A stretch of 64,000 nucleotides of DNA from Acetobacter farinalis. Lineage in GTDB: Bacteria > Pseudomonadota > Alphaproteobacteria > Acetobacterales > Acetobacteraceae. A program made the translations under genes and the position numbers. Positions within the stretch are counted from its first letter, which is position 1. Every line of letters begins with the position of its first letter. Shown here piece after piece: positions 4,058 through 17,218 of the stretch. The stretch is taken from the NCBI RefSeq assembly GCF_011516935.1, contig NZ_WOTF01000004.1:1-64000 (forward strand). The letters are read 5' to 3'. A model generated the notes under the pieces. It had not been told where the DNA came from and did not search any database. It saw only the letters and a program-made list of their open reading frames with translations.

Positions 4058-4395
4058 GGTCAGGCCTCCTTTCGTACGTCCGATATGGCGGGGAAAAGCC
4101 CCTTTTTGGGTAGGGAAGCCACTGTCCGCTATGCTTTCAGATGTGTTGCATCAATCATCAGGCGCTTTGAACGATCAGCCTGTTCTGTCAGGGCGACGAA
4201 GATCCGGTCAAAGACACCGAGACGGCGCCACCAGATAAAGCGATTGTATAAGGTCTTGTGCGGGTCATAGGCTTTCGGGGCATCTTTCCACTGAAGACCA
4301 TTGCAGATCCCGTAAACAATCCCGCTCAGAACTCGCCGGTCATCCACTCGCAGAACGCCGTGGGTCAGCAGAAAATACGGCTTAATCCTCTCCAC
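4058..4395 (-). pseudogene. IS5-family (IS427-like) transposase remnant with nonsense codon
   Basis: Leftward from 4395 the first 88 codons encode an IS5-type N-terminal transposase segment: LSGIVYGICNGLQWKDAP, then FDRIFVAL and LMIDATHLKA, the last being the first catalytic Asp region. A TAG follows, but the same frame continues with RTVASLPKKGLFPRHIGRTKGG, which is normal IS5 sequence, so the stop is a nonsense mutation. The element is then truncated at the junction with another IS5 fragment. Its outer end is probably at 4472, followed by CTAG. Confidence 0.75.
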
Positions 4396-4472: not shown

Positions 4473-5276
4473 CTAGAAAGAGGCTTCGTCCTCCTCGTCC
4501 TCTCCGGCCGTCTTGTCCTTGTCGGCTGTATGGCCTTTGTCCGGCTGGGGCGAGGGGCCGGGGGCGGTATGCGCTCCGGGGTGCGGGGTGCTAACGGAGC
4601 CGATGCCGTCAATGTCCTGAGTGAGAGATTGCGGCGTGTTGAGGAGCTTCACGGAACCCGCGCCATCAATGGAGATTTTGACATGGCCGGTCGGCCCGGC
4701 TTTGACAGACCCCGCACCATCCATGGACAGATCAAGATCAGAGAGGATCAGGTCTGTCAGGTTGGCCGAGCCTGCGCCTTCGAGAGCCAGCGTGAGGCTG
4801 TCCGCACGGCCATGGACCGTCACTGTGGCTGCCCCGTTAATGGTCAGGGCAAGATGCGGCTGCTGAAAATCCTGCATATCCAGAGAGCCGAAGCCGTTGA
4901 GGGTGAGCGTATTGAGGGCCGGAGCCGTGACAGTGATGGTCAGTGAACTGTTACGCCAGTGGAGGGAGTGGATGTGGCCTTCCCCCATATCCAGCGTGTT
5001 GTCATGCAGCCTGACCTGATCAACCAGTTTTTCTGAACCGCTGAGCGTGATGCCGGGGTGTTCACCCTGTTTGCAGATAATGCGGGCCGGAAGGTTGAAG
5101 GTCAGGGCGTTACTGCCCTGCCAGTCCAGCGTGCGGGTTGTGGTGGCGGAGGATGTGTCCGAGAAGACGGTATCACTGCTCCACAGGACAACCGGCCCGC
5201 GGGAGGCCGCCGCGCCAAAGCACAGGACGGAAAGGGCAGCGCCGCCGAGCGCGATCATTGTAATGCCACGGATCAT
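4473..5276 (-). CDS. DUF2807 (GIN-domain) exported beta-helix protein
   Basis: The 267-residue product starts with a signal peptide (about 1-24, ending AAASRG). It continues with a repetitive GIN/DUF2807 domain with recurring GAGSV and DGAGSVK turns, typical of short right-handed beta-helices. The C-terminal ~35 residues are rich in Asp, Glu and Lys. It is third in a leftward gene set behind a PadR regulator and a DUF1700 membrane protein, a recurring association in which DUF2807/DUF4097 proteins are probable envelope sensors or adhesin-like parts. The stop codon lies in the CTAG next to an IS5 remnant, so an insertion may have altered the original C-terminus. Confidence 0.8.
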   Translation of the reverse strand: MIRGITMIALGGAALSVLCFGAAASRGPVVLWSSDTVFSDTSSATTTRTLDWQGSNALTFNLPARIICKQGEHPGITLSGSEKLVDQVRLHDNTLDMGEGHIHSLHWRNSSLTITVTAPALNTLTLNGFGSLDMQDFQQPHLALTINGAATVTVHGRADSLTLALEGAGSANLTDLILSDLDLSMDGAGSVKAGPTGHVKISIDGAGSVKLLNTPQSLTQDIDGIGSVSTPHPGAHTAPGPSPQPDKGHTADKDKTAGEDEEDEASF

Positions 5277-5320: not shown

Positions 5321-5893
5321 TCAGGAGGGAGTAGCGCGGACAATCAGGCGGTAATGCGCGCGGCCATAGCGCACGAGCAGGTTGATGATGCCGAGGGTAA
5401 ACAGGACACACACCGCCACCACGGACGCACCACCGCTGGCCATGCCGAGGCTGATCAGCACGCCCTGAAGCCAGTCCCCCTCAAAACCGGGGATCAGATT
5501 GACCAGGGCGAGGGGCAGCAGAAGGCTTCCTGCCAGACAGATACAGCCGCCAGCTATGAAAAATGCGATGTCAACGGAGGCAACTGTCATCAGCACGGGC
5601 AGCACCACGAGCATATCGAGTGCCGCAAGGCCGAGCACGCCTACAATGGCCCCCAGCGCATTGCTCAGGCTGCGCTCATCCTCCCAGCGGCGCAGGCCGG
5701 CTTCCGCCCGCAGTTCCCGCGCCAGCCGTGCAGGGTCTCCCAGCGCGCTGGCAATCGCGCTGTCTGAACGGCCTGCTGTATGGCCGTCATCAAAATGCGC
5801 GGTGTATTCTGAAAGGATATCCTCAACAACAGAACGCGGCAGGCCTTTCAATCCTGCCCGTAGCTGGTCAAGGAACATCTGTCTGCTGTTCAT
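5321..5893 (-). CDS. DUF1700 (HAAS) family membrane protein
   Basis: The 190-residue product begins with a HAAS-type helical domain (about 1-65: FLDQLRAGLKGLPRSVVEDI, then DGHTAGRSD and ALGDPARLARELRAE). Three or four hydrophobic helices follow between about 80 and 180. An AGGA ribosome site lies about 9 bases before the ATG. HAAS/DUF1700 genes typically follow PadR regulators and the domain is thought to transmit a signal or bind the regulator. Here it sits 13 bp behind the padR-type gene and 44 bp ahead of the DUF2807 gene, so all three are probably one transcript. Confidence 0.85.
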   Translation of the reverse strand: MNSRQMFLDQLRAGLKGLPRSVVEDILSEYTAHFDDGHTAGRSDSAIASALGDPARLARELRAEAGLRRWEDERSLSNALGAIVGVLGLAALDMLVVLPVLMTVASVDIAFFIAGGCICLAGSLLLPLALVNLIPGFEGDWLQGVLISLGMASGGASVVAVCVLFTLGIINLLVRYGRAHYRLIVRATPS

Positions 5894-5906: not shown

Positions 5907-6287
5907 TTATGCTTTCTGCACGGTCAGGGTGGTGGAGCCGTGGGGGGCAGGTGTGGCGGAGGGGGTGTCACGCTGCCCGAGGATGGAGGCGACAGCTTTG
6001 GTAAAGGCGGTCCAGGCCGCGTTCTGCCTGTTCAGGCTCTGGCGGCCATTTTCCGTCAGGGTGTAATATTTGCGCGGCGGACCTGAAGAAGATTCGACAA
6101 AATATGTTGAGACAAGACCATCTTTCTGCATGCGCCGCATAAGCGGGTAGATGGTGCCTTCTCCCATATCAATGGTTTCAGACAAGCGGCTGGCAATGTC
6201 ATATCCGTATGAATCCGCCTGAGAGAGCAGGGCGAGCACACACAGTTCCAGCACGCCTTTTCTAAACTGAATAAGGTTGGGTTCCAC
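5907..6287 (-). CDS. PadR-family transcriptional regulator
   Basis: This 126-residue protein has the PadR winged-helix N-terminus: KGVLELCVLALLSQADSYGYDI, then GTIYPLMRRMQKDGLV and the wing with GPPRKYYTLT. A short C-terminal helix serves dimerisation, as in subfamily-2 PadR proteins. The start is GTG, with AGGAAA about 7 bases upstream. It heads the leftward DUF1700-DUF2807 set and is divergent from the NRPS gene. It probably represses its own operon and may also affect the NRPS promoter through the shared intergenic region. Confidence 0.9.
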   Translation of the reverse strand: MEPNLIQFRKGVLELCVLALLSQADSYGYDIASRLSETIDMGEGTIYPLMRRMQKDGLVSTYFVESSSGPPRKYYTLTENGRQSLNRQNAAWTAFTKAVASILGQRDTPSATPAPHGSTTLTVQKA

Positions 6288-6360
6288 GGTGTTTCCTGTC
6301 CTGGGAAGCCCGCCCGCCGGGGTGCCGGGCGGCTGACGACTCCTTACTGGCTGTCGATAG

Positions 6361-6398
6361 CTACTGAATACAGAATGGAACCATTCAATGCAAGGTAG
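6361..6398. promoter_or_regulatory. Candidate PadR operator, dyad between padR-type gene and NRPS
   Basis: A 38-bp imperfect dyad is centred at 6379.5. The core is GAATGG-AA-CCATTC (6373-6386), with outer CTAC/GTAG arms at 6361-6364 and 6395-6398. It lies in the divergent region, 74 bp from the regulator start and 136 bp from the NRPS start. The symmetry is seen directly; binding by the PadR protein is inferred. Confidence 0.45.
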
Positions 6399-6533
6399 TG
6401 GTTTATAAATTTATCCCTTTCCCGCATCTCGGAAAATCATCGCGGTTTGTTAACGCAAAGCAAAGACTTCTTCCTGTAGTCTCGAAACGCAGGATTCTGC
6501 TCTTCCGGTTTTACAGTTTGAGGCGATAGAAAA

Positions 6534-9500
6534 GTGTCTGGAACTCCGCTGCCACTGACCACCGCCCAGCGTGGCGTCTGGATGGGATGCCTTCTTCAGA
6601 CACAGGAAGGTACGTTCAATATTGCCGAAGCTGTGGAAATTCACGGTCCGGTTGAACCGGGCCTGTTTCGGCAGGCGCTGGAACAGGTGGCGCAGGAAGC
6701 GGAAACAACGCGTGTCAGTATCCGGATGGGCGTGCGTGGGCCGGAGCAGCATATCCTTCCCCAGTTACGATGCCCCTTGCCTTATCTTGATGTTTCACAA
6801 AACCCAGACCCGGACGCCAGCGCGCAGGACTGGATGATGCAGCGTGTGATGGCTCCGGTGGATCTGGCGGAAGACCCGCTCTGGTATTCCGCATTGCTGA
6901 AACTCTCGGCGGAGCGGTTTGTCTGGTTCCATTGCTGCCATCATATCGCGATGGATGGGTTTTCCGGTGGGCTGGTCGTGGCGCGGGTGGCGGAACTGTA
7001 TTCCGCATTGGTGGAAGGGCGGCAGCCGGAGCCGTCACCTTTCCTTCCCCTGCGCCAGCTTATTGAGCAGGAAGCGGCGTACCGGGAGAGTGCGCGGCGG
7101 GAGGCGGACCTCCACTACTGGCGGGACTCCCTGCGCGCGCCACCACCGCCCATAACCCTGGCCTCTCCCCTGCATGTCGCGCGGGGTGTGGCAGCGCAAG
7201 TGCAAAAACTTGGCTTTATAACACGCAACTGGACCATTCCGCCTGCCATGGCCACGCAGATGGAGCAGATTGGCAAGGCAGGCGGCGTGACGCTGCCACA
7301 AATGCTGACAGCCCTTCTGACACTCTACCTGTTCCGCATGACGGGGCAGGAAGATCTGACAGTGGGGATGCCTGTCACCGGGCGGACAGACCGCGAAATG
7401 CGCCGGGTGCCGGGTATGGCGGCCAATGCCGTTGTGCTGCGCCTGGCTCCTGCGCAGACACTGCCTTTTTCTGATCTGCTGGCGCAGGTGCGGCGGAGCA
7501 TGCGCGGGGCGCTCCGGCATCAGGGGTTCCGGTATGAAGACCTGCGCCGCATCCTAGGCTTTCACGATACACAGGCGCATCTCTCGCGCATCGGCATCAA
7601 TATCGAGCCGTTTGATTATCATCTCTCCTTTGGTGGCCACCCGGCGCGGAACCGGAACCTGAGCAACGGCGCCATGGAAGACCTGACAATTTTTGTGTTC
7701 GACCGTCAGGATGGGCAGGGTTTGTCCCTCGCGCTGTACGCAAACCCGGCTTTGTATGATGGGGCTGATCTGGAACGGCATCTGGCGCGCCTTGTGCGCC
7801 TGATGCAGGCTGTTCTGGAAGATCCGACCCAGACACTGGGGGCGTATCCCGTGTTTTCCGAAACCGAGCGTGCTGTGCTGCTGGCGGATGAAGCCCGCAC
7901 GGCACGGCGGTGGGAAACGCAGGACTGCAAGACGGATCTGGCGCGCCATGCGGCCCGAACACCTCGTGCGACAGCCATTGTGGATGCGCTGGGCACAGTT
8001 ACGTACGCGGAGCTTTCCGTTGCGGTCCGTAGTCTGGCTAAACGGCTGCGTGGCATGGAGATTGGCGCCGGAGATATTGTGGCGCTGATGCTCCCGCGTG
8101 ACCGGCGGCAGGTGATAGCCATGCTTGCCACGGCCTCTGTCGGCGCGGCGTGGCTTTCTCTGGATGTGGCCGGGCCGCGTGAACGCAACGCGACAATTAT
8201 TGCCAATGCGAAGCCTGCCCTGTTTCTGACAGAGGCTGTTCTGCCCACGGGCCTTCCCGACGGAGCCGCCACACTGGGGCTGACGGCTGAGGGTCTGCCC
8301 GCCACACTCTACGGGCAACCGGCAGGGCAGAGGGCCGCAGGTGTTCCGGCTGGCACGGCGTATGTCATTTATACATCAGGCACTACCGGAGCCCCCAAGG
8401 GGGTTGTGGTGTCCTGGCGGAGCCTGACCAATCTGCTGTGCGCCATGAAAGATGCCCTGTCTTTCGGGAGTGGGGAATGCTGGCTGTCCGTCACATCGGT
8501 CACGTTTGATATTTCCATTCTGGAACTTCTGCTGCCGCTCAAAACCGGAGCCAGACTGGTGATCGCCCGGCGTGAGACTGTGCTGGACCCGGCCTTGCTG
8601 GCGGAAGCGCTCAGGCACCACGGCGTGACACTCATGCAGGCCACGCCCACCTTATGGCAGATGCTGGTGGGGGCCGGGCTGGGGGCCAGCCTGCGGCAGG
8701 TTCGTGTGCTGTCTGGGGGAGAGCCGTTACCGGCTGTGCTGGCCCGGCATCTGCTGGCCTGTGCGCGTGCGGTCTATAATGTGTATGGCCCGACTGAAAC
8801 CACAATCTGGTCCAGCTTTCAGGGGGTGGAGGAAGAAAACTGCCGTGAGGGCGCTGTGGTGCCTGCCGGGCGCCCGCTGGCGAACACGCAGTTTTATTGC
8901 CTTGATCCCTCGGGCGCGCTGCTGGCTCCCGGCATGCCGGGGCAACTCGCCATTGGTGGGGAAGGCGTTGCATCGGGTTATCTGCACCGGCCTGAGCTGA
9001 CACAGGCGGTGTTCAGGCCCGATCCGTTTACGGCGCGGCCTGAGGCAAGACTGTATCTGACGGGAGACCGCGCTGTTCGGCAGGCGGATGGCACCCTGAC
9101 GGTGCTGGGGCGCATGGATGCGCAAATCAAGATCAGAGGTGTGCGCGCCGAGCCTGCGGAAATTGAGGGGGCGCTTGTCCGGCTTCCGGGGGTTGCGCAG
9201 GCTGCGGTCCGGGTCTGGGAGCGCCCGCATGGTCCTGTTCTGGCGGCGTATCTCGTGCTTGCCGCGCCACAGGATGCCGCTGGTAGCGCAGGTCTGGCTG
9301 AAAATGATCTGGTGCTGTTCCGGGAGCATTTGCAGGCCATGCTGCCCGTGCAGATGGTGCCTTCCTGCTTTGTCGTGCTGGAAAGCCTGCCTCTGACAGC
9401 CTCCGGCAAGCTGGACCGCAAGGCACTGCCGGAACCGGTGTCTGATGAATGTTCCGCAGAGCGGGCAGAACCCCGCACCGCGGAAGAGCATATACTGGTG

Positions 9501-10565
9501 GCCCTGTGGTCCGATATTCTTGGTATAAAAAACATAGGCCTGAACGATAATTTTTTTGATCTTGGGGGAGACAGTCTCGGGGCTGTTCATTTTGTCACAG
9601 GACTGGCCGAGAAAGGGTATGACCTTCCCGTGGCGGCCCTTTTTGGCGCGCCTACCATTGCCCGGCTGGCCCCGCTGCTGCATCAGGCACAGTCCCTTGA
9701 GAATATCCTGCTGGAAACGCTGCTGCCGCTACGCCCGGAGGGGGCAGGGCAACCCGTTTTCTGCCTGCACCCCATTCTTGGCGTGTCCCTGAGTTTCTCT
9801 TCTCTTTTGCCGTTCATACCGGAAGACAGGCCGGTTTACGGCCTGCAGAATGCCGGGCTGATGCAGGGGGCGGATGCTCCGGGCACCCTGCAAGCTCTTG
9901 CCGCTCTTTATCTGGAGCAGATCCGTGCCGTGCAGCCGGAGGGGCCCTACACAGTTGTCGGCTGGTCCATGGGCGGGCTTGTTGCCCATGCCGTGTGCGC
10001 GGCGCTGCAGAAGGAAGGGGAGCAGCGCGTCACACTGGTTATGCTGGACTCCTATCCCCTGCTGTCGGAGCCGGGGGCGGCGCAGCGGAGCCTGACGGAT
10101 CAGGAACTGATCATGCAGGCAATTCCTTTATTGGGAATAGAATTTTCTGAAACCCTCCCGCAGACACTGGATGCTCTGGCGGATCAGATTGTCAGTGAGA
10201 TGATGCAGGGGGATCTGGTGATCCCAGCCGAATTTGGGGATGTGGCAGCGCTTTGCGCGCAGTTGCGGTCTGTGGTGGAGCGGAACCTGCACCTCATGCG
10301 GACATGGAAACCCGATCCTGTGAACGCTGATCTTCTGTTTTTACGCGCAACCCAGCGTGGGGCCGGGTTGGTGCGGGATGATCCCGCTGTCTGGGCAGAC
10401 TATGTAAAGGGGCATCTGGTTGTGCAGGATGTGCCCTGCACACATGGCGCCATGCTGCACCCGGAGCATGCCCGCCAGATTGCAGGCAGTGTGCTGGCGT
10501 TTGAAGCCCGTGCGGAAGCGGTTGAGGTTACGGCTCAAGCAGCCGCCAGTCCGCCATCTGTTTGA
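6534..10565 (+). CDS. EntF-like single-module nonribosomal peptide synthetase (C-A-PCP-TE)
   Basis: This 1343-residue protein has a condensation domain (about 5-440; HHIAMDG at 136-142), an adenylation domain (about 465-965; YTSGTTGAPKG near 613, YLTGD, GKLDRKAL with Lys959), a carrier domain (FDLGGDSLG, Ser1014) and a thioesterase (GWSMGG, Ser1145). Size and order match EntF. Aligning the adenylation pocket to GrsA by eye gives D659-I660-L663-Q702-V725-S727-V750-I758-W759. That is close to the glycine code DILQLGLIW and unlike the serine code of EntF. GTG start with GAGG 9 bases upstream. It faces a glycosyltransferase gene and overlaps it. No carrier-modifying or dihydroxybenzoate genes are in the window, so the acyl partner is unknown. 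A siderophore-like product is inferred. Confidence 0.92.
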   Translation: MSGTPLPLTTAQRGVWMGCLLQTQEGTFNIAEAVEIHGPVEPGLFRQALEQVAQEAETTRVSIRMGVRGPEQHILPQLRCPLPYLDVSQNPDPDASAQDWMMQRVMAPVDLAEDPLWYSALLKLSAERFVWFHCCHHIAMDGFSGGLVVARVAELYSALVEGRQPEPSPFLPLRQLIEQEAAYRESARREADLHYWRDSLRAPPPPITLASPLHVARGVAAQVQKLGFITRNWTIPPAMATQMEQIGKAGGVTLPQMLTALLTLYLFRMTGQEDLTVGMPVTGRTDREMRRVPGMAANAVVLRLAPAQTLPFSDLLAQVRRSMRGALRHQGFRYEDLRRILGFHDTQAHLSRIGINIEPFDYHLSFGGHPARNRNLSNGAMEDLTIFVFDRQDGQGLSLALYANPALYDGADLERHLARLVRLMQAVLEDPTQTLGAYPVFSETERAVLLADEARTARRWETQDCKTDLARHAARTPRATAIVDALGTVTYAELSVAVRSLAKRLRGMEIGAGDIVALMLPRDRRQVIAMLATASVGAAWLSLDVAGPRERNATIIANAKPALFLTEAVLPTGLPDGAATLGLTAEGLPATLYGQPAGQRAAGVPAGTAYVIYTSGTTGAPKGVVVSWRSLTNLLCAMKDALSFGSGECWLSVTSVTFDISILELLLPLKTGARLVIARRETVLDPALLAEALRHHGVTLMQATPTLWQMLVGAGLGASLRQVRVLSGGEPLPAVLARHLLACARAVYNVYGPTETTIWSSFQGVEEENCREGAVVPAGRPLANTQFYCLDPSGALLAPGMPGQLAIGGEGVASGYLHRPELTQAVFRPDPFTARPEARLYLTGDRAVRQADGTLTVLGRMDAQIKIRGVRAEPAEIEGALVRLPGVAQAAVRVWERPHGPVLAAYLVLAAPQDAAGSAGLAENDLVLFREHLQAMLPVQMVPSCFVVLESLPLTASGKLDRKALPEPVSDECSAERAEPRTAEEHILVALWSDILGIKNIGLNDNFFDLGGDSLGAVHFVTGLAEKGYDLPVAALFGAPTIARLAPLLHQAQSLENILLETLLPLRPEGAGQPVFCLHPILGVSLSFSSLLPFIPEDRPVYGLQNAGLMQGADAPGTLQALAALYLEQIRAVQPEGPYTVVGWSMGGLVAHAVCAALQKEGEQRVTLVMLDSYPLLSEPGAAQRSLTDQELIMQAIPLLGIEFSETLPQTLDALADQIVSEMMQGDLVIPAEFGDVAALCAQLRSVVERNLHLMRTWKPDPVNADLLFLRATQRGAGLVRDDPAVWADYVKGHLVVQDVPCTHGAMLHPEHARQIAGSVLAFEARAEAVEVTAQAAASPPSV

Positions 10566-11784
10566 TGGCGCGTGCCACGCCATCTTCCGCGCGCACCTGC
10601 TGGCCAAGGCGGGCTGCGGCCTGAACCATGGCCGGGTGCGTTGCCTGCCGCAAGGCTTCAGCCAGCGTGCTGGCGGACATGGTGCGGATAGCCTGCGCGG
10701 GCGTGGCAACACCAATGCGGCCCAACTGCCAGCCCCAGAAAAACTGGTCTCCCACAAAAGGAACTGGCACGGTGGGTATGCCGGCCCGCACGGCGGCGGC
10801 GGCGGTGCCCGCCCCGCAATGATGCACAGCCAGACGCACCCGCTGGAACAGCCATTCATGCGGAATACTGTCCACCACATGCAGGTCCGGCGTGTTGTCC
10901 AGAAACCGCTTCAGCCCGGACCACCCGCTGCCGACAACAGCCCTCAGGCCACTTCTCTGCACGGCCTCCTGCACCATGCTGGCAAGCCGTGCGGCTTCGC
11001 TGCTCAGCATGCTGCCAAAGCCGATATAGACCGGTTTTTCTCCCGCTTTCAAAAAAGCCTCGAGGTCCGGCGGGGGCTGCCACGCGGTAGGGGTGGGGGC
11101 AATGAAATAACCCGGCATGGCAATCCGTTCCGGCCACTCGGGCTGGCGGGGCACAACATGCTGGCTGAATCCGTACAGGATATGCGTCCCTTTTGCCCGC
11201 TGGTCATGCCACGGGCCGCGCAGACCATAAGGGGAAAGATGAAGCTTTTCCCTTACGTTATTTGCAATGGAGCGGGTGAGCAGCCATGCCGTTTGCCGCA
11301 GGGCGTGGTGCAGCATGAGGTTCATGGAGCCCGGCAGGGAGTGCGGCCGGAACCAGACAGGCGGCAGCGCCCGGCTGGCTTCCAGCGGTTGCAACTGTGT
11401 CTGTATAAAAGGCACTCCGGCGCGTTCCGCCAGACTGGCGGCCAGCAGCGTGACATTGCCTGAGCCGATCAGCAGTGTGGCATTTTTTGCCGCAGCCATG
11501 CCTTCTTCAGGCCAGTGCTGTGCCATTCGCCGCGTTTCTTCCACCACCACGCGTGCCACGGCGGCCCCGCTGCGCCCATCCAGCGCCTGAGGGTGTCTGC
11601 GCATCATGCCTGCAAAATCCGCCGTCAGAGGCGCAAATTCCAGTCCCGCCTGTGTAATGGCGGGCGCAAATCCGGGGTCTGCCGCCAGCCTGACGGAATG
11701 GCCGCGTGCTGCCAGCCCGGCACCCAGAGCAATATGGGGGCGGATATCTCCCTCGGTTCCGACTGTCATGATGACAACTGTCAT
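10528..11784 (-). CDS. GT1 UDP-sugar glycosyltransferase (MGT/sterol glucosyltransferase-like)
   Basis: The 418-residue product has the two-domain GT-B fold. The N-terminus has MTVGTEGDIRPHIALGAGL, the conserved glycosyltransferase 28/GT1 start. The C-terminal nucleotide-sugar site has GFGSM near 280 and HHCGAGTAAAAVRAGIPTV followed by FVGDQFFWG. Related enzymes glycosylate lipids, sterols, macrolides or, as in IroB, catecholate siderophores. The gene converges on the NRPS gene and their 3' ends overlap by 38 bp, so it is not co-transcribed with it. The proximity suggests tailoring of the NRPS product, but a separate lipid acceptor is equally possible. Confidence 0.85.
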   Translation of the reverse strand: MTVVIMTVGTEGDIRPHIALGAGLAARGHSVRLAADPGFAPAITQAGLEFAPLTADFAGMMRRHPQALDGRSGAAVARVVVEETRRMAQHWPEEGMAAAKNATLLIGSGNVTLLAASLAERAGVPFIQTQLQPLEASRALPPVWFRPHSLPGSMNLMLHHALRQTAWLLTRSIANNVREKLHLSPYGLRGPWHDQRAKGTHILYGFSQHVVPRQPEWPERIAMPGYFIAPTPTAWQPPPDLEAFLKAGEKPVYIGFGSMLSSEAARLASMVQEAVQRSGLRAVVGSGWSGLKRFLDNTPDLHVVDSIPHEWLFQRVRLAVHHCGAGTAAAAVRAGIPTVPVPFVGDQFFWGWQLGRIGVATPAQAIRTMSASTLAEALRQATHPAMVQAAARLGQQVRAEDGVARAIKQMADWRLLEP

Positions 11785-11917: not shown

Positions 11918-12295
11918 CTATAGTCCGGGGCTGTGCAGGCGGCGTTCTCCAACCTTGAACCATGCCTTGGCAATCTTGCCGTTCTGAACTTCGTAAATGC
12001 ACAGGACATCTATTTCACCCGGTCCTTCAGGAAAAGTCCGCTGCACGCGTTCATGATCAACCACGATGTTGTCGAGAGCAAACCGTGAGAGAAGCTCTCC
12101 AAAAAGATCCGGTTCCATGAAGCGCTGGATATGGCGTTCACGGATTTCCGCTGCGCCGGACGCAAGCACTGTCGATGGAAAGGCGTAATACTGGCAGTCT
12201 TCTGCCCACCAGGCCATGAAGGCGTCTATATCACGCGCATTGTAGGCTTCCAGTTGTTTCTGGACGGGAGTGAGAATGTCCGCTTGCTGAGGCAT
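11918..12295 (-). CDS. NTF2-like (SnoaL-type) family protein
   Basis: From the ATG at 12295 the product is 125 residues: VQKQLEAYNARDIDAFMAWW, then CQYYAFP and IRERHIQRF, and a C-terminal VLCIYEVQNGKIAKAWF strand pair. This is the cone-shaped NTF2-like fold of SnoaL/DUF4440 proteins. AGGAG lies 8 bases before this ATG, so it is preferred over the upstream in-frame start at 12358. Family members are small-molecule isomerases, cyclases or binding proteins, and the ligand here is unknown. It lies between the glycosyltransferase gene and ilvE, all leftward, with a terminator in front. Confidence 0.75.
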   Translation of the reverse strand: MPQQADILTPVQKQLEAYNARDIDAFMAWWAEDCQYYAFPSTVLASGAAEIRERHIQRFMEPDLFGELLSRFALDNIVVDHERVQRTFPEGPGEIDVLCIYEVQNGKIAKAWFKVGERRLHSPGL

Positions 12296-12338
12296 GTGCG
12301 GCTCCTGAAAAATATTCCTCACCTGTTGCGGCGCGCAT

Positions 12339-12373
12339 AAAAAATCCCGCCCGGACAACCATGCCGGGCGGGA
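12339..12373 (-). terminator. Rho-independent terminator of ilvE
   Basis: On the minus strand TCCCGCCCGG and CCGGGCGGGA (12364-12373 and 12345-12354) form a perfect 10-bp stem with a 9-base loop, followed directly by a run of six T. It lies 33 bp past the ilvE stop. Confidence 0.9.
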
Positions 12374-15206: not shown

Positions 15207-16037
15207 TCAGGCAATGCCCTCCACACTGACAAATTTCCGGCCATCCGCGCCGGTGTCCACCCGGGCGCGAACGCGGTAGGTCTCGCGCAGCAGCTCCGGT
15301 GTCAGCACAGCAGCGGGCGGCCCGGAGGCTGTAATGCGCCCTTCGTGCAGAACGGTGACATGGTCCGTCAGGTTCAGGGCGCTGTTCAGGTCATGCAGCA
15401 CCAGCACCGTAACAAGCTGATGCGCGGCTGTTTCCCGGCGCAGAATATCCATCACGGCAAACTGGTGGTGCAGGTCCAGCGCGCTGAGCGGTTCATCCAG
15501 CAGCAGGGCTTTGGGTTTGCGGCTCAGGGCCTGCGCCAGCCCAACCAGTTGCCTCTGCCCCCCGGAGAGTTCATCCATGGCCTGCATGGCCAGATGCGGA
15601 ATGCCGAACAGGCTGAGGCTCTCCAGTGCCGCCTGAATGGCATCCTCTTCCGCAGGAGCGGAGGGGAGGGGAGTTCTGACAGTCTGGCGCGCCGCCATCA
15701 GGGCTTCCAGCACGGGCAGTTGCACGGCGGCAGGCAGCGCCTGTGGCAGATACAGGCAGCGCCGCGTGCGGTCTGGCAGGCTCATGCGGGACAGGTCTTC
15801 CCCATTCAGCGTGACATGGGCTGAGGAGGGCACAAGCCCGGCAATGGCGCGCAGAAGGGTGGACTTCCCGCTGCCGTTCGGCCCCAGCAGGGCACAGACC
15901 GTGCCGGGAGCGAAGGGGCCAGCGGTGACATCATGCAGCACAGCGCGCCGGCCATACCGGACCGAGACATGCGCCGCACGCAGCCCGGCGTGTGGAACGA
16001 GGGAAGGGGAGGGCTGTGTCATGAAGGGGTGTGTCAT
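15207..16037 (-). CDS. Iron-siderophore/heme-type ABC transporter ATP-binding protein
   Basis: The 276-residue ATPase has Walker A GPNGSGKST, a Q-loop at LYLPQ, signature LSGGQRQL, Walker B ALLLDEPLSALD and the H-loop VLHDLN. This is the FepC/HmuV class of ATPase. Its ATG at 16037 overlaps the permease stop (ATGA), so the two genes are translationally coupled. It would energise import through the FecCD-type permease encoded upstream. An apparent N-terminal extension in the longer open frame belongs to the permease reading frame and is not used. Confidence 0.9.
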   Translation of the reverse strand: MTHPFMTQPSPSLVPHAGLRAAHVSVRYGRRAVLHDVTAGPFAPGTVCALLGPNGSGKSTLLRAIAGLVPSSAHVTLNGEDLSRMSLPDRTRRCLYLPQALPAAVQLPVLEALMAARQTVRTPLPSAPAEEDAIQAALESLSLFGIPHLAMQAMDELSGGQRQLVGLAQALSRKPKALLLDEPLSALDLHHQFAVMDILRRETAAHQLVTVLVLHDLNSALNLTDHVTVLHEGRITASGPPAAVLTPELLRETYRVRARVDTGADGRKFVSVEGIA

Positions 16038-17218
16038 GACAGGCCCCGCTGCCGCAGCACGATGCTCAGAAAAAACGGAATACCAACCAGCGCGGTGACA
16101 ATGCCGGTTGGAATAATCACGCCGGGGATCATCATGCGCGCGGTGACAGAGGACAGGGAGAGGATCAGCGCCCCGGCCAGCATGCTGCCGGGGAGATAAA
16201 ACCGGTGATCTTCCCCCAGCAGCCGGCGGGCAATATGCGGGGCCACCAGCCCCACAAACCCGATCACGCCGACAAACGAGACCGCGAGGGCGGAAAGCAG
16301 GCTGATGCGCAGCAGGGCCGCCCGCCGCACACGGGGCACGTTCACACCCAGACTGGCGGCCCGTTCTTCCCCCATGCGCAGGGTTGTCAGGCTCCACGCG
16401 GCACGGAAAGAGAAGGGAGCCACCACCGCCCCAAGAGCCGCCAGCAGGGCCACCTTGGGCCATGTTGTGCGGGTCAGGCTGCCCATGGTCCAGAAGACCA
16501 GATCCTGCAACGTATCCTCACTCGCCATGAACTGCATGAGCGAGACGAGCGCCTGAAATGTAAACACCAGAGCAATGCCGAACAGCACCACGGTGCTTGT
16601 ACTGGCCTGGCGCAGGTGCCCGACCAGATCGAGCAGAAAAACCGAGCCAACAGCGCAGACAAACGCATTATCCGCAATCACCCACGTGTCTGGCAGGCCG
16701 GGCAGATGCAGCCCCAGAACAAGGGCGAGCGAGGCCCCGAACGCCGCGGCGGCGGAAACCCCGAGCGTGAACGGGCTGGCCAGCGGGTTTGCCAGAATGG
16801 TCTGCATTTCCGCGCCGGAAAGCCCGAGCGCCGCCCCGACACAGACTGCCATCAGCGCATAAGGCAGGCGGATCTGCCAGACGATAATCCGCTCGCTGTC
16901 CGGCACGGCGGCGGGGTGCAGCAGCGTGTGCAGCAGTTGGGCGGGGGAAAGCCCTGCCGGGCCCAGAGAGAAATCCAGCAGCACAGACAGCAGGATTGCC
17001 CCGCCAAGCAGCGCCAGAACACCCATCCGCCGGGCCAGAAGCGCCTGATAGGCCGCTCTGATCTCTCTCAGGGATGCCGTGGCGGAGGGCTGGGCTGGGC
17101 TGGAAAGGCTGGGGCGTGTCATGAGTGGGTGTTGGTCCGGCATCTGCCCCGTCATGCCGGGGCGCATGAAACGGGGGCGCGTGAAAACTGTTTCAAAGGC
17201 TGATCTCCTGCCTAGCAC
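16034..17218 (-). CDS. FecCD-family iron-siderophore ABC transporter permease
   Basis: The FecCD-type permease has about 9-10 membrane helices, with the conserved RLPYALMAVCVGAALGLSGAEMQ, NPLASPFTLGVSAAAAFG, and near the C-terminus GVIGFVGLVAPHIARRLLGEDHR and GIVTALVGIPFF. The frame from 17218 (GTG) gives 394 residues, about 40 longer than usual. Internal ATGs at 17167, 17155 and 17122 are alternative starts and the first hydrophobic helix begins near residue 65. It is followed by the coupled ATPase gene. No periplasmic binding protein is encoded beside it, so the substrate-binding protein must be elsewhere. Confidence 0.9.
   Translation of the reverse strand: MLGRRSAFETVFTRPRFMRPGMTGQMPDQHPLMTRPSLSSPAQPSATASLREIRAAYQALLARRMGVLALLGGAILLSVLLDFSLGPAGLSPAQLLHTLLHPAAVPDSERIIVWQIRLPYALMAVCVGAALGLSGAEMQTILANPLASPFTLGVSAAAAFGASLALVLGLHLPGLPDTWVIADNAFVCAVGSVFLLDLVGHLRQASTSTVVLFGIALVFTFQALVSLMQFMASEDTLQDLVFWTMGSLTRTTWPKVALLAALGAVVAPFSFRAAWSLTTLRMGEERAASLGVNVPRVRRAALLRISLLSALAVSFVGVIGFVGLVAPHIARRLLGEDHRFYLPGSMLAGALILSLSSVTARMMIPGVIIPTGIVTALVGIPFFLSIVLRQRGLS

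Follow-up and report, generated by a model that had tools for sequence, protein, structure and literature searches.

The DNA analysed here, referred to as the window, is a stretch of 64,000 nucleotides from Acetobacter farinalis (Acetobacteraceae; assembly GCF_011516935.1, contig NZ_WOTF01000004.1, positions 1 to 64,000 of the forward strand), in which the gene for a single-module nonribosomal peptide synthetase (NRPS) meets, tail to tail, the gene for a glycosyltransferase (GT). The module is composed of condensation (C), adenylation (A), peptidyl carrier protein (PCP) and thioesterase (TE) domains. The features of the pair, with the basis of each (ORF, open reading frame), are as follows.

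6534..10565, + strand: single-module NRPS, C-A-PCP-TE, 1343 aa (ORF and domain search)
6549..7883, + strand: condensation domain, motif HHIAMDG, with the RzmA starter domain (RzmA-Cs) as best solved match (motif alignment and structure-sequence comparison)
7941..9410, + strand: adenylation domain, code DILQLGVIWK of glycine type (Pfam, alignment and published codes)
9495..9671, + strand: peptidyl carrier domain, motif GGDSL, with residue 1014 as the expected phosphopantetheine serine (Pfam and alignment)
9750..10490, + strand: type I thioesterase domain, motif GWSMG, Asp1172 and His1304 (Pfam and alignment)
10528..11784, - strand: GT1/GT28-type glycosyltransferase, 418 aa, convergent with the NRPS (Pfam and structure-sequence matches)
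10528..10565, no strand: overlap of the NRPS and GT 3' ends, 38 bp (ORF coordinates)

All NRPS domains scored above their Pfam cut-offs (Condensation, residues 6-450; AMP-binding, 470-817 and 876-959; PP-binding, 988-1046; Thioesterase, 1073-1319), bearing out a preliminary description of this locus as an EntF-shaped single C-A-PCP-TE module. The active-site motifs HHIAMDG, GGDSL and GWSMG are kept, the TE Asp and His align in EntF's columns, and residues 659-664 read DISILE. This NRPS is the sole Condensation match found in the A. farinalis assembly (2.94 Mb, 74 contigs). The GT matches the Pfam families Glyco_transf_28, EryCIII-like_C and UDPGT, and among solved structures it is closest in sequence to sterol 3-beta-glucosyltransferases, followed by GtfA, GtfD and GtfB. 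The pair is proposed to make a glycine glycolipid, i.e., a (3-hydroxy)acyl-glycine carrying a sugar, a reading to which a probability of about 0.6 is assigned.

The ten-residue code of the adenylation pocket, obtained by aligning the NRPS with relatives and comparators, reads DILQLGVIWK. Two controls, E. coli EntF (L096) and a Roseomonas plasmid NRPS (L075) whose gene neighbours include isochorismate synthase, 2,3-dihydroxybenzoate-AMP ligase and related ent-type genes, both returned DVWHFSLVDK, the serine code. Published equivalents of the window's code point to glycine: glycine is predicted for the NcmB pocket DILQLGVI, matching the nocamycin structure (PMC5466765), the DhbF1 code DILQVGLIWK is assigned to glycine (PMC4169593), and DILQLGMIWK is reported in glycine-activating domains (PMC12283262). 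A literature search for two nine-letter pocket codes found no paper. The pocket had been read by eye as D-I-L-Q-V-S-V-I-W, glycine-like and unlike serine; the proper alignment upholds that specificity but replaces V with L at position 299 and S with G at position 301, and the corrected code fits glycine better than the earlier reading.

The second line of evidence is the distribution of the pair. Strong homologues occur in 8/49 genomes of the genus (G000, G005, G016, G030, G033, G042, G046 and G047, with interrupted copies only in G030) and, at E <= 1e-200, in 12/397 evenly drawn genomes of the family, the window's genome counted. The order of Dyella (Xanthomonadales) gave matches at E <= 1e-180 in 33/299 genomes, 22 of them above 1100 bits (family type) and 11 at or below 662, and an order search centred on genome G750 (6 genomes) gave none. 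Scanning named contigs with an alignment (A1) yielded 19 loci, of which 18 were used after a weak Bacillus match (L073) was dropped. The named relatives are A. tropicalis, A. senegalensis, A. cibinongensis, A. persici, A. malorum, A. thailandicus, Acidomonas, Asaia, Gluconobacter, Brytella and Dyella. For comparison, 66 loci were split by NRPS score into 45 family members and 21 comparators, full-length family NRPSs scoring at least 948 bits and comparators at most 763; L069 and L072 are interrupted pieces with lower scores.

A GT lies within the stretch at 43/45 family loci vs. 0/21 comparators, which supports the glycosyltransferase involvement suggested in the preliminary description. At the two family loci without one (L057 and L061), the contig ends 217 bp and 2 bp, respectively, past the NRPS match. 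The 43 take in one locus fetched twice (L068/L134), a GT truncated where its contig stops (L098) and NRPS copies that are interrupted (L062, L069, L072 and L154). The GT is on the same strand as the NRPS in 34 of them and on the opposite strand in nine, all from Acetobacter and Acidomonas. Gammaproteobacterial single-module NRPSs were rejected as family members, a GT being present in none of 11 loci with wide flanks. An apparent NRPS-GT fusion in Dyella (L068; 1764-aa ORF) was likewise discarded, the NRPS match being in another frame and the ORF a high-GC shadow frame that runs into the real GT start. Among the comparators, 12 have serine codes, four are of glycine type and five are of other types. 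One glycine-type comparator, L074, is a single-module NRPS on a Pseudosulfitobacter plasmid that has the code DILQLGVIWK and lies, without a GT, between cytochrome o oxidase genes and transposases.

Pairs from genomes of the Dyella order share 37-42% (NRPS) and 41-46% (GT) identity with the window's pair. NRPS and GT distances correlate over 36 pairs (r = 0.947; 0/2000 permutations as high), a value that shared ancestry alone would also raise, and the main groups of the maximum-likelihood NRPS and GT trees agree, L100 excepted. At L100 (G303), the GT precedes the NRPS on the same strand; in the trees this GT falls in the window's clade and the NRPS among Dyella-order members, suggesting one GT exchange, likely a change of partner. 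In four comparisons each, dN/dS (the ratio of nonsynonymous to synonymous substitution rates) was 0.132-0.227 for the window's NRPS and 0.099-0.227 for its GT, at saturating dS values of 1.0-1.9; closer pairs gave 0.125-0.163 for the NRPS, with 0.16 for the relatives L058, L059 and L071. The long open frames in relatives and the purifying selection confirm that the genes are real, beyond chance.

The glycine code extends to most of the family. Acetobacteraceae members with all ten residues aligned have DILQ[LM]G[VLM]IWK, and most Dyella-order members have DILQ[LM]G[FLCM][VI]WK. The pockets of L140, L142, L143, L145 and L154 read DILWLGLVLK, DVLQLALVYK twice, DIFQLTLVWK and DILQLVLIWK, which may select other amino acids. 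Eight Dyella-order members, L147-L154, have the condensation motif SHLVMDG in place of HHxxxDG.

The condensation domain alone was compared with solved structures, scoring 239-244 bits with RzmA-Cs (7c1k, 7c1h and 7c1p), 163 with CdaPS1-Cs, 156 with ObiF1 and 134 with EntF. The 7C1 structures are described as the RzmA starter domain, and initiation in CDA as fed by acyl-acyl carrier protein (acyl-ACP) (PMC7804268). By these best matches, the domain would be of the lipid-starter type, nearer to RzmA-Cs and CdaPS1-Cs than to EntF. The genome has four PF00501 (AMP-binding) matches, i.e., two acetate-CoA ligases, one fatty acyl-AMP ligase and the window's NRPS, with no FadD-type or EntE-like ligase among them. 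The fatty acyl-AMP ligase gene lies beside an ACP-like ORF and an ORF presumably encoding serine palmitoyltransferase, neighbours that probably place it in the making of sphingolipids. As neither a FadD- nor an EntE-type enzyme turned up, the simplest donor would be an acyl-ACP supplied by fatty acid synthesis. The remark that no aryl-acid genes are visible thus holds genome-wide for AMP ligases, entA, entB and entC homologues not having been searched genome-wide.

The proposed route begins with the transfer of a phosphopantetheine arm to the carrier domain, presumably by AcpS, the genome's only detected transferase. The A domain would then load glycine, as its code suggests, and the starter-type C domain would acylate the glycine nitrogen, most likely with a 3-hydroxyacyl group drawn from acyl-ACP, since the genome search turned up no FadD-type ligase. 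The TE would free the acyl-glycine, perhaps with further esterified 3-hydroxyacyl units, and the GT would add a hexose, probably glucose, to the terminal hydroxyl, as the gene pairing and a known Alcanivorax compound (see below) suggest. The product would be a component of the cell envelope or be exported to it. A small acyl- or aryl-glycine, possibly glycosylated, had already been suggested from the sequence; the acyl-glycine is favoured by the starter C domain, the glycine code and the GT pairing, whereas the salmochelin-like logic attached to the suggestion is not.

Activation of the carrier domain was addressed by searching for phosphopantetheinyl transferases (PPTases). PF01648 gave one match in 14/15 Acetobacteraceae carriers tested; it is AcpS-like in 13/14, the frame in G030 (L045) not being usefully displayed, and G033 has a second, Sfp-type match beside its large NRPS. 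A profile (A2) built from four Sfp-type proteins was run on 19 carriers, G204, G208, G250 and G303 being tested with A2 only. It matched G033 and, weakly (E 0.002) and inside its AcpS, G057, with nothing in the other 17, so that 18/19 carriers, several of them draft or metagenome-assembled genomes, lack a detectable Sfp-type transferase. The positive controls G001 and G033 (in the profile) and Dyella G056 (outside it) were matched. For the window's genome, neither PF01648 nor the Sfp-type profile detected an accompanying PCP-specific PPTase. As no Sfp-type enzyme was detected, AcpS presumably activates the synthetase; the carrier domain is probably activated by AcpS or by an unrecognised enzyme. 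The charge of carrier helix II was considered as a sign of AcpS recognition and not used as evidence, only a weak tendency being seen in 22 rows (net acid 0 to +2 in Acetobacter, Acidomonas, Asaia and Gluconobacter, -3 in EntF and 0 to +3 in Xanthomonadales).

The genes that flank the pair differ among relatives. A protein of cluster C3 follows the GT at 6/6 loci from Asaia (3), Gluconobacter potus, Brytella and A. thailandicus; it is an ABC-2 (ATP-binding cassette) permease in both loci that were Pfam-scanned, and in A. thailandicus an ABC ATPase gene precedes it. Dyella-type loci add a condensation-like protein (PapA_C match below the Pfam cut-off), a GT2 and a second condensation-like protein, and another Xanthomonadales group adds an Acyl_transf_3 protein (flank scans of L162, L166 and L176, one to two loci per group). 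The exporter, the condensation-like proteins, the GT2 and the Acyl_transf_3 protein may be accessories of a glycolipid type. In another Acetobacter setting, a cluster-C5 protein adjoins the pair at 5 loci and, where scanned, has a Hint domain; in 4/5 its neighbour is a recombinase-type gene, and a relaxase lies near A. malorum's copy, which suggests mobility.

On the upstream side of the window's pair lie the following features.

6288..6533, no strand: divergent intergenic region between the PadR gene and the NRPS (ORF coordinates, promoter and Fur-box scans)
5907..6287, - strand: PadR-family regulator, divergent from the NRPS and a candidate regulator of it (Pfam)
5321..5893, - strand: HAAS-domain protein, second gene of the PadR trio (Pfam)
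4473..5276, - strand: DUF2807 protein, third gene of the PadR trio (Pfam and clustering)

The DUF2807 cluster adjoins the NRPS at 4 loci, the window's counted. A sigma-70-like promoter was not found between 6250 and 6600, and a Fur box (an E. coli-type consensus, <=3 mismatches) had no match anywhere in the window. Farther upstream, short ORFs at 1151-1753 and 4129-4395 resemble transposase fragments by eye. Just past the GT, at 11918-12358, lies a small SnoaL-like/limonene-epoxide-hydrolase-like protein with no cluster in common with the named relatives compared. At 15207-17218 lie genes for a FecCD permease and an ABC ATPase, and by eye no adjoining gene for a substrate-binding protein was noticed in the ORF list. 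These were not taken as linked siderophore genes, since the ATPase cluster is unrepresented in the stretches read at L058, L059, L062 and L071; that unlinking is weak, the cluster (C2) being broad and the permease not clustered. In A. persici (L069), a member of the same cluster lies near the pair, beside a gene that is also its neighbour in the window, i.e., in shared chromosomal surroundings.

Several points weigh against a glycine glycolipid. The product is predicted from genes, and none has been observed so far. No acyl-supply gene adjoins the window's pair, and the GT, being on the opposite strand, is not co-transcribed with the NRPS. The code alone implies no sugar, because the four glycine-code comparators (L074, L111, L113 and L114) have no GT, and the five Xanthomonadales members with divergent pockets lie off the glycine code. 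The dN/dS values are rough because most synonymous distances exceed 1. Both NRPS copies of A. persici JCM 25330 (L062 and L069) are spread over several frames, through decay or assembly error, with the adjoining GT frames open. The synthetase could stay inactive in view of the 18/19 carriers described above. The role of the gene pair ABO_1784/1783 in the Alcanivorax lipid is suspected, not proven, one source calling the pathway not elucidated.

Some of these points would suit a plain N-acyl-glycine, a lipoamino acid or signal, with the GT as a neighbour that has a separate job. A single module with a starter-type C domain and a TE requires no sugar, the convergent GT forms no operon with it, and the same four comparators do without one. 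However, the GT is kept nearly throughout the family, across Acetobacteraceae and Xanthomonadales and mostly on the same strand, it is absent from all comparators, and its distances track those of the NRPS, making this reading unlikely. It is quite unlikely, too, that in acetic acid bacteria the synthetase remains in an inactive apo form for lack of an Sfp-type transferase, the genes being relics. The PPTase survey and the broken A. persici copies fit that view, as does the argument of Royer et al. that function persists only with a PCP-specific transferase (PMC3849588). However, the window's frame is open over ~1340 codons at a dN/dS of 0.13-0.23, its active-site motifs are kept, and L058, L059 and L071 evolve at 0.16 though no Sfp-type enzyme was detected in their genomes (G042, G005 and G016).

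A cyclic or oligomeric glycine-based product, such as a hydroxyacyl-glycine depsipeptide made by the TE and glycosylated or not, is highly improbable: the TE motifs are intact, and EntF, the single-module model enzyme, oligomerises before release, but no sign of iteration was seen and the Alcanivorax lipid is described as linear. The weakest alternative, with hardly any probability left, is a catechol or salmochelin-like siderophore with glycine replacing serine, in line with the salmochelin-like logic of the preliminary description: the C-A-PCP-TE layout, EntF among the matches and the nearby FecCD-type transporter would fit it, but weighing against it are the lack of an EntE-like ligase among the AMP-binding matches, an NCBIfam EntF score of 527 bits vs. 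a cut-off of 2400, the lipid-starter C domain, the absence of a Fur-box match in the window, the pairs at L058, L059, L062 and L071 without an adjoining ATPase-cluster member in the stretches read (the FecCD permease lying outside that clustering) and the lipid-type flanking genes of some relatives.

A glycine glycolipid from the NRPS-GT pair is thus the preferred reading. A wider claim, which we put forward tentatively and would not expect to hold in full, is that acetic acid bacteria make an unreported sugar-hydroxyacyl-glycine through an AcpS-activated one-module synthetase, and that the pair moves as a unit across alpha- and gammaproteobacteria and on mobile elements. What appeared to be a lone, oddly coded NRPS becomes a member of a two-gene unit across Acetobacteraceae and the Dyella order with a testable product class. 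Cultivable food and plant bacteria, e.g., A. malorum, A. tropicalis and Asaia, are suited to proving the gene-to-product link left open for the Alcanivorax glycine-glucolipid. The requirement for a PCP-specific transferase proposed in 2013 is challenged, intact copies under purifying selection occurring where only AcpS was found. If the reading is correct, bacteria of vinegar and insect guts would have a new glycolipid in their envelope, which may matter for tolerance of acid, formation of pellicles and contact with the host.

Among known systems, EntF shares the C-A-PCP-TE order and differs in its DVWHFSLVDK code and in the NCBIfam equivalog cut-off, which the window's NRPS falls far below. 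EntF uses 2,3-dihydroxybenzoate. Acinetobacter baumannii AB3403 (PDB 4zxh/4zxi), a glycine module, matches over the full C-A-PCP-TE length with 470 bits, whereas its C domain matches weakly, with 53 bits; it is not known to have a GT partner.

The closest published systems were reported by Royer et al. in 2013, who found that X. albilineans has short NRPS genes of the C-A-PCP-TE type, each overlapping a gene for a GT (XALc_0364/0365 and XALc_1145/1144), with a similar pair in the oil-degrading marine bacterium Alcanivorax borkumensis, ABO_1784/1783, with the PPTase gene ABO_1782 contiguous with ABO_1783 (PMC3849588). XALc_0364 has a glycine signature, one of two signature types reported, and a predicted product of glycine, a beta-hydroxy acid and a sugar; the same source argues that function is kept only where the PCP-specific transferase is kept, the enzyme being missing in two Xanthomonas species that have the genes (PMC3849588). 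By this published description, the window's pair is alike in its single C-A-PCP-TE module, starter-type C domain, glycine signature and overlap of the GT with the NRPS 3' end, the 38-bp overlap here being formed by two convergent 3' ends. It is unlike in the convergent orientation of its GT and in the lack of a detected Sfp-type transferase, whereas ABO_1782 is one in Alcanivorax. Because no accompanying PCP-specific PPTase was detected, the window's pair is called a variant, not a typical member.

In the A. borkumensis lipid, glucose is borne by four 3-hydroxy acids joined as esters, with an amide-linked glycine at the end, and on the basis of its aglycone forms one paper speculated that glucose is added last (PMC10710537, PMC10684412, PMC6669457). 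A 2023 paper calls its pathway not elucidated and names ABO_1783 as a RhlB-like GT candidate. Glycine, a 3-hydroxyacyl chain and a hexose would be common to this lipid and the product predicted for the window; the former is known as a compound. Literature searches turned up no glycine glycolipid of this kind from acetic acid bacteria, in agreement with the preliminary description; the gene pair and a predicted product were already published for Xanthomonas. A survey of Acetobacteraceae lists monomodular NRPSs in A. malorum and A. cibinongensis, its section 17 giving no GT partner, amino acid or product (PMC8776678); both species have members of the present family (L071 and L059). Compared with these systems, in which the gene pair itself is already described, the new elements here are the acetic-acid-bacterial setting, the inverted, convergent GT and the apparent reliance on AcpS.

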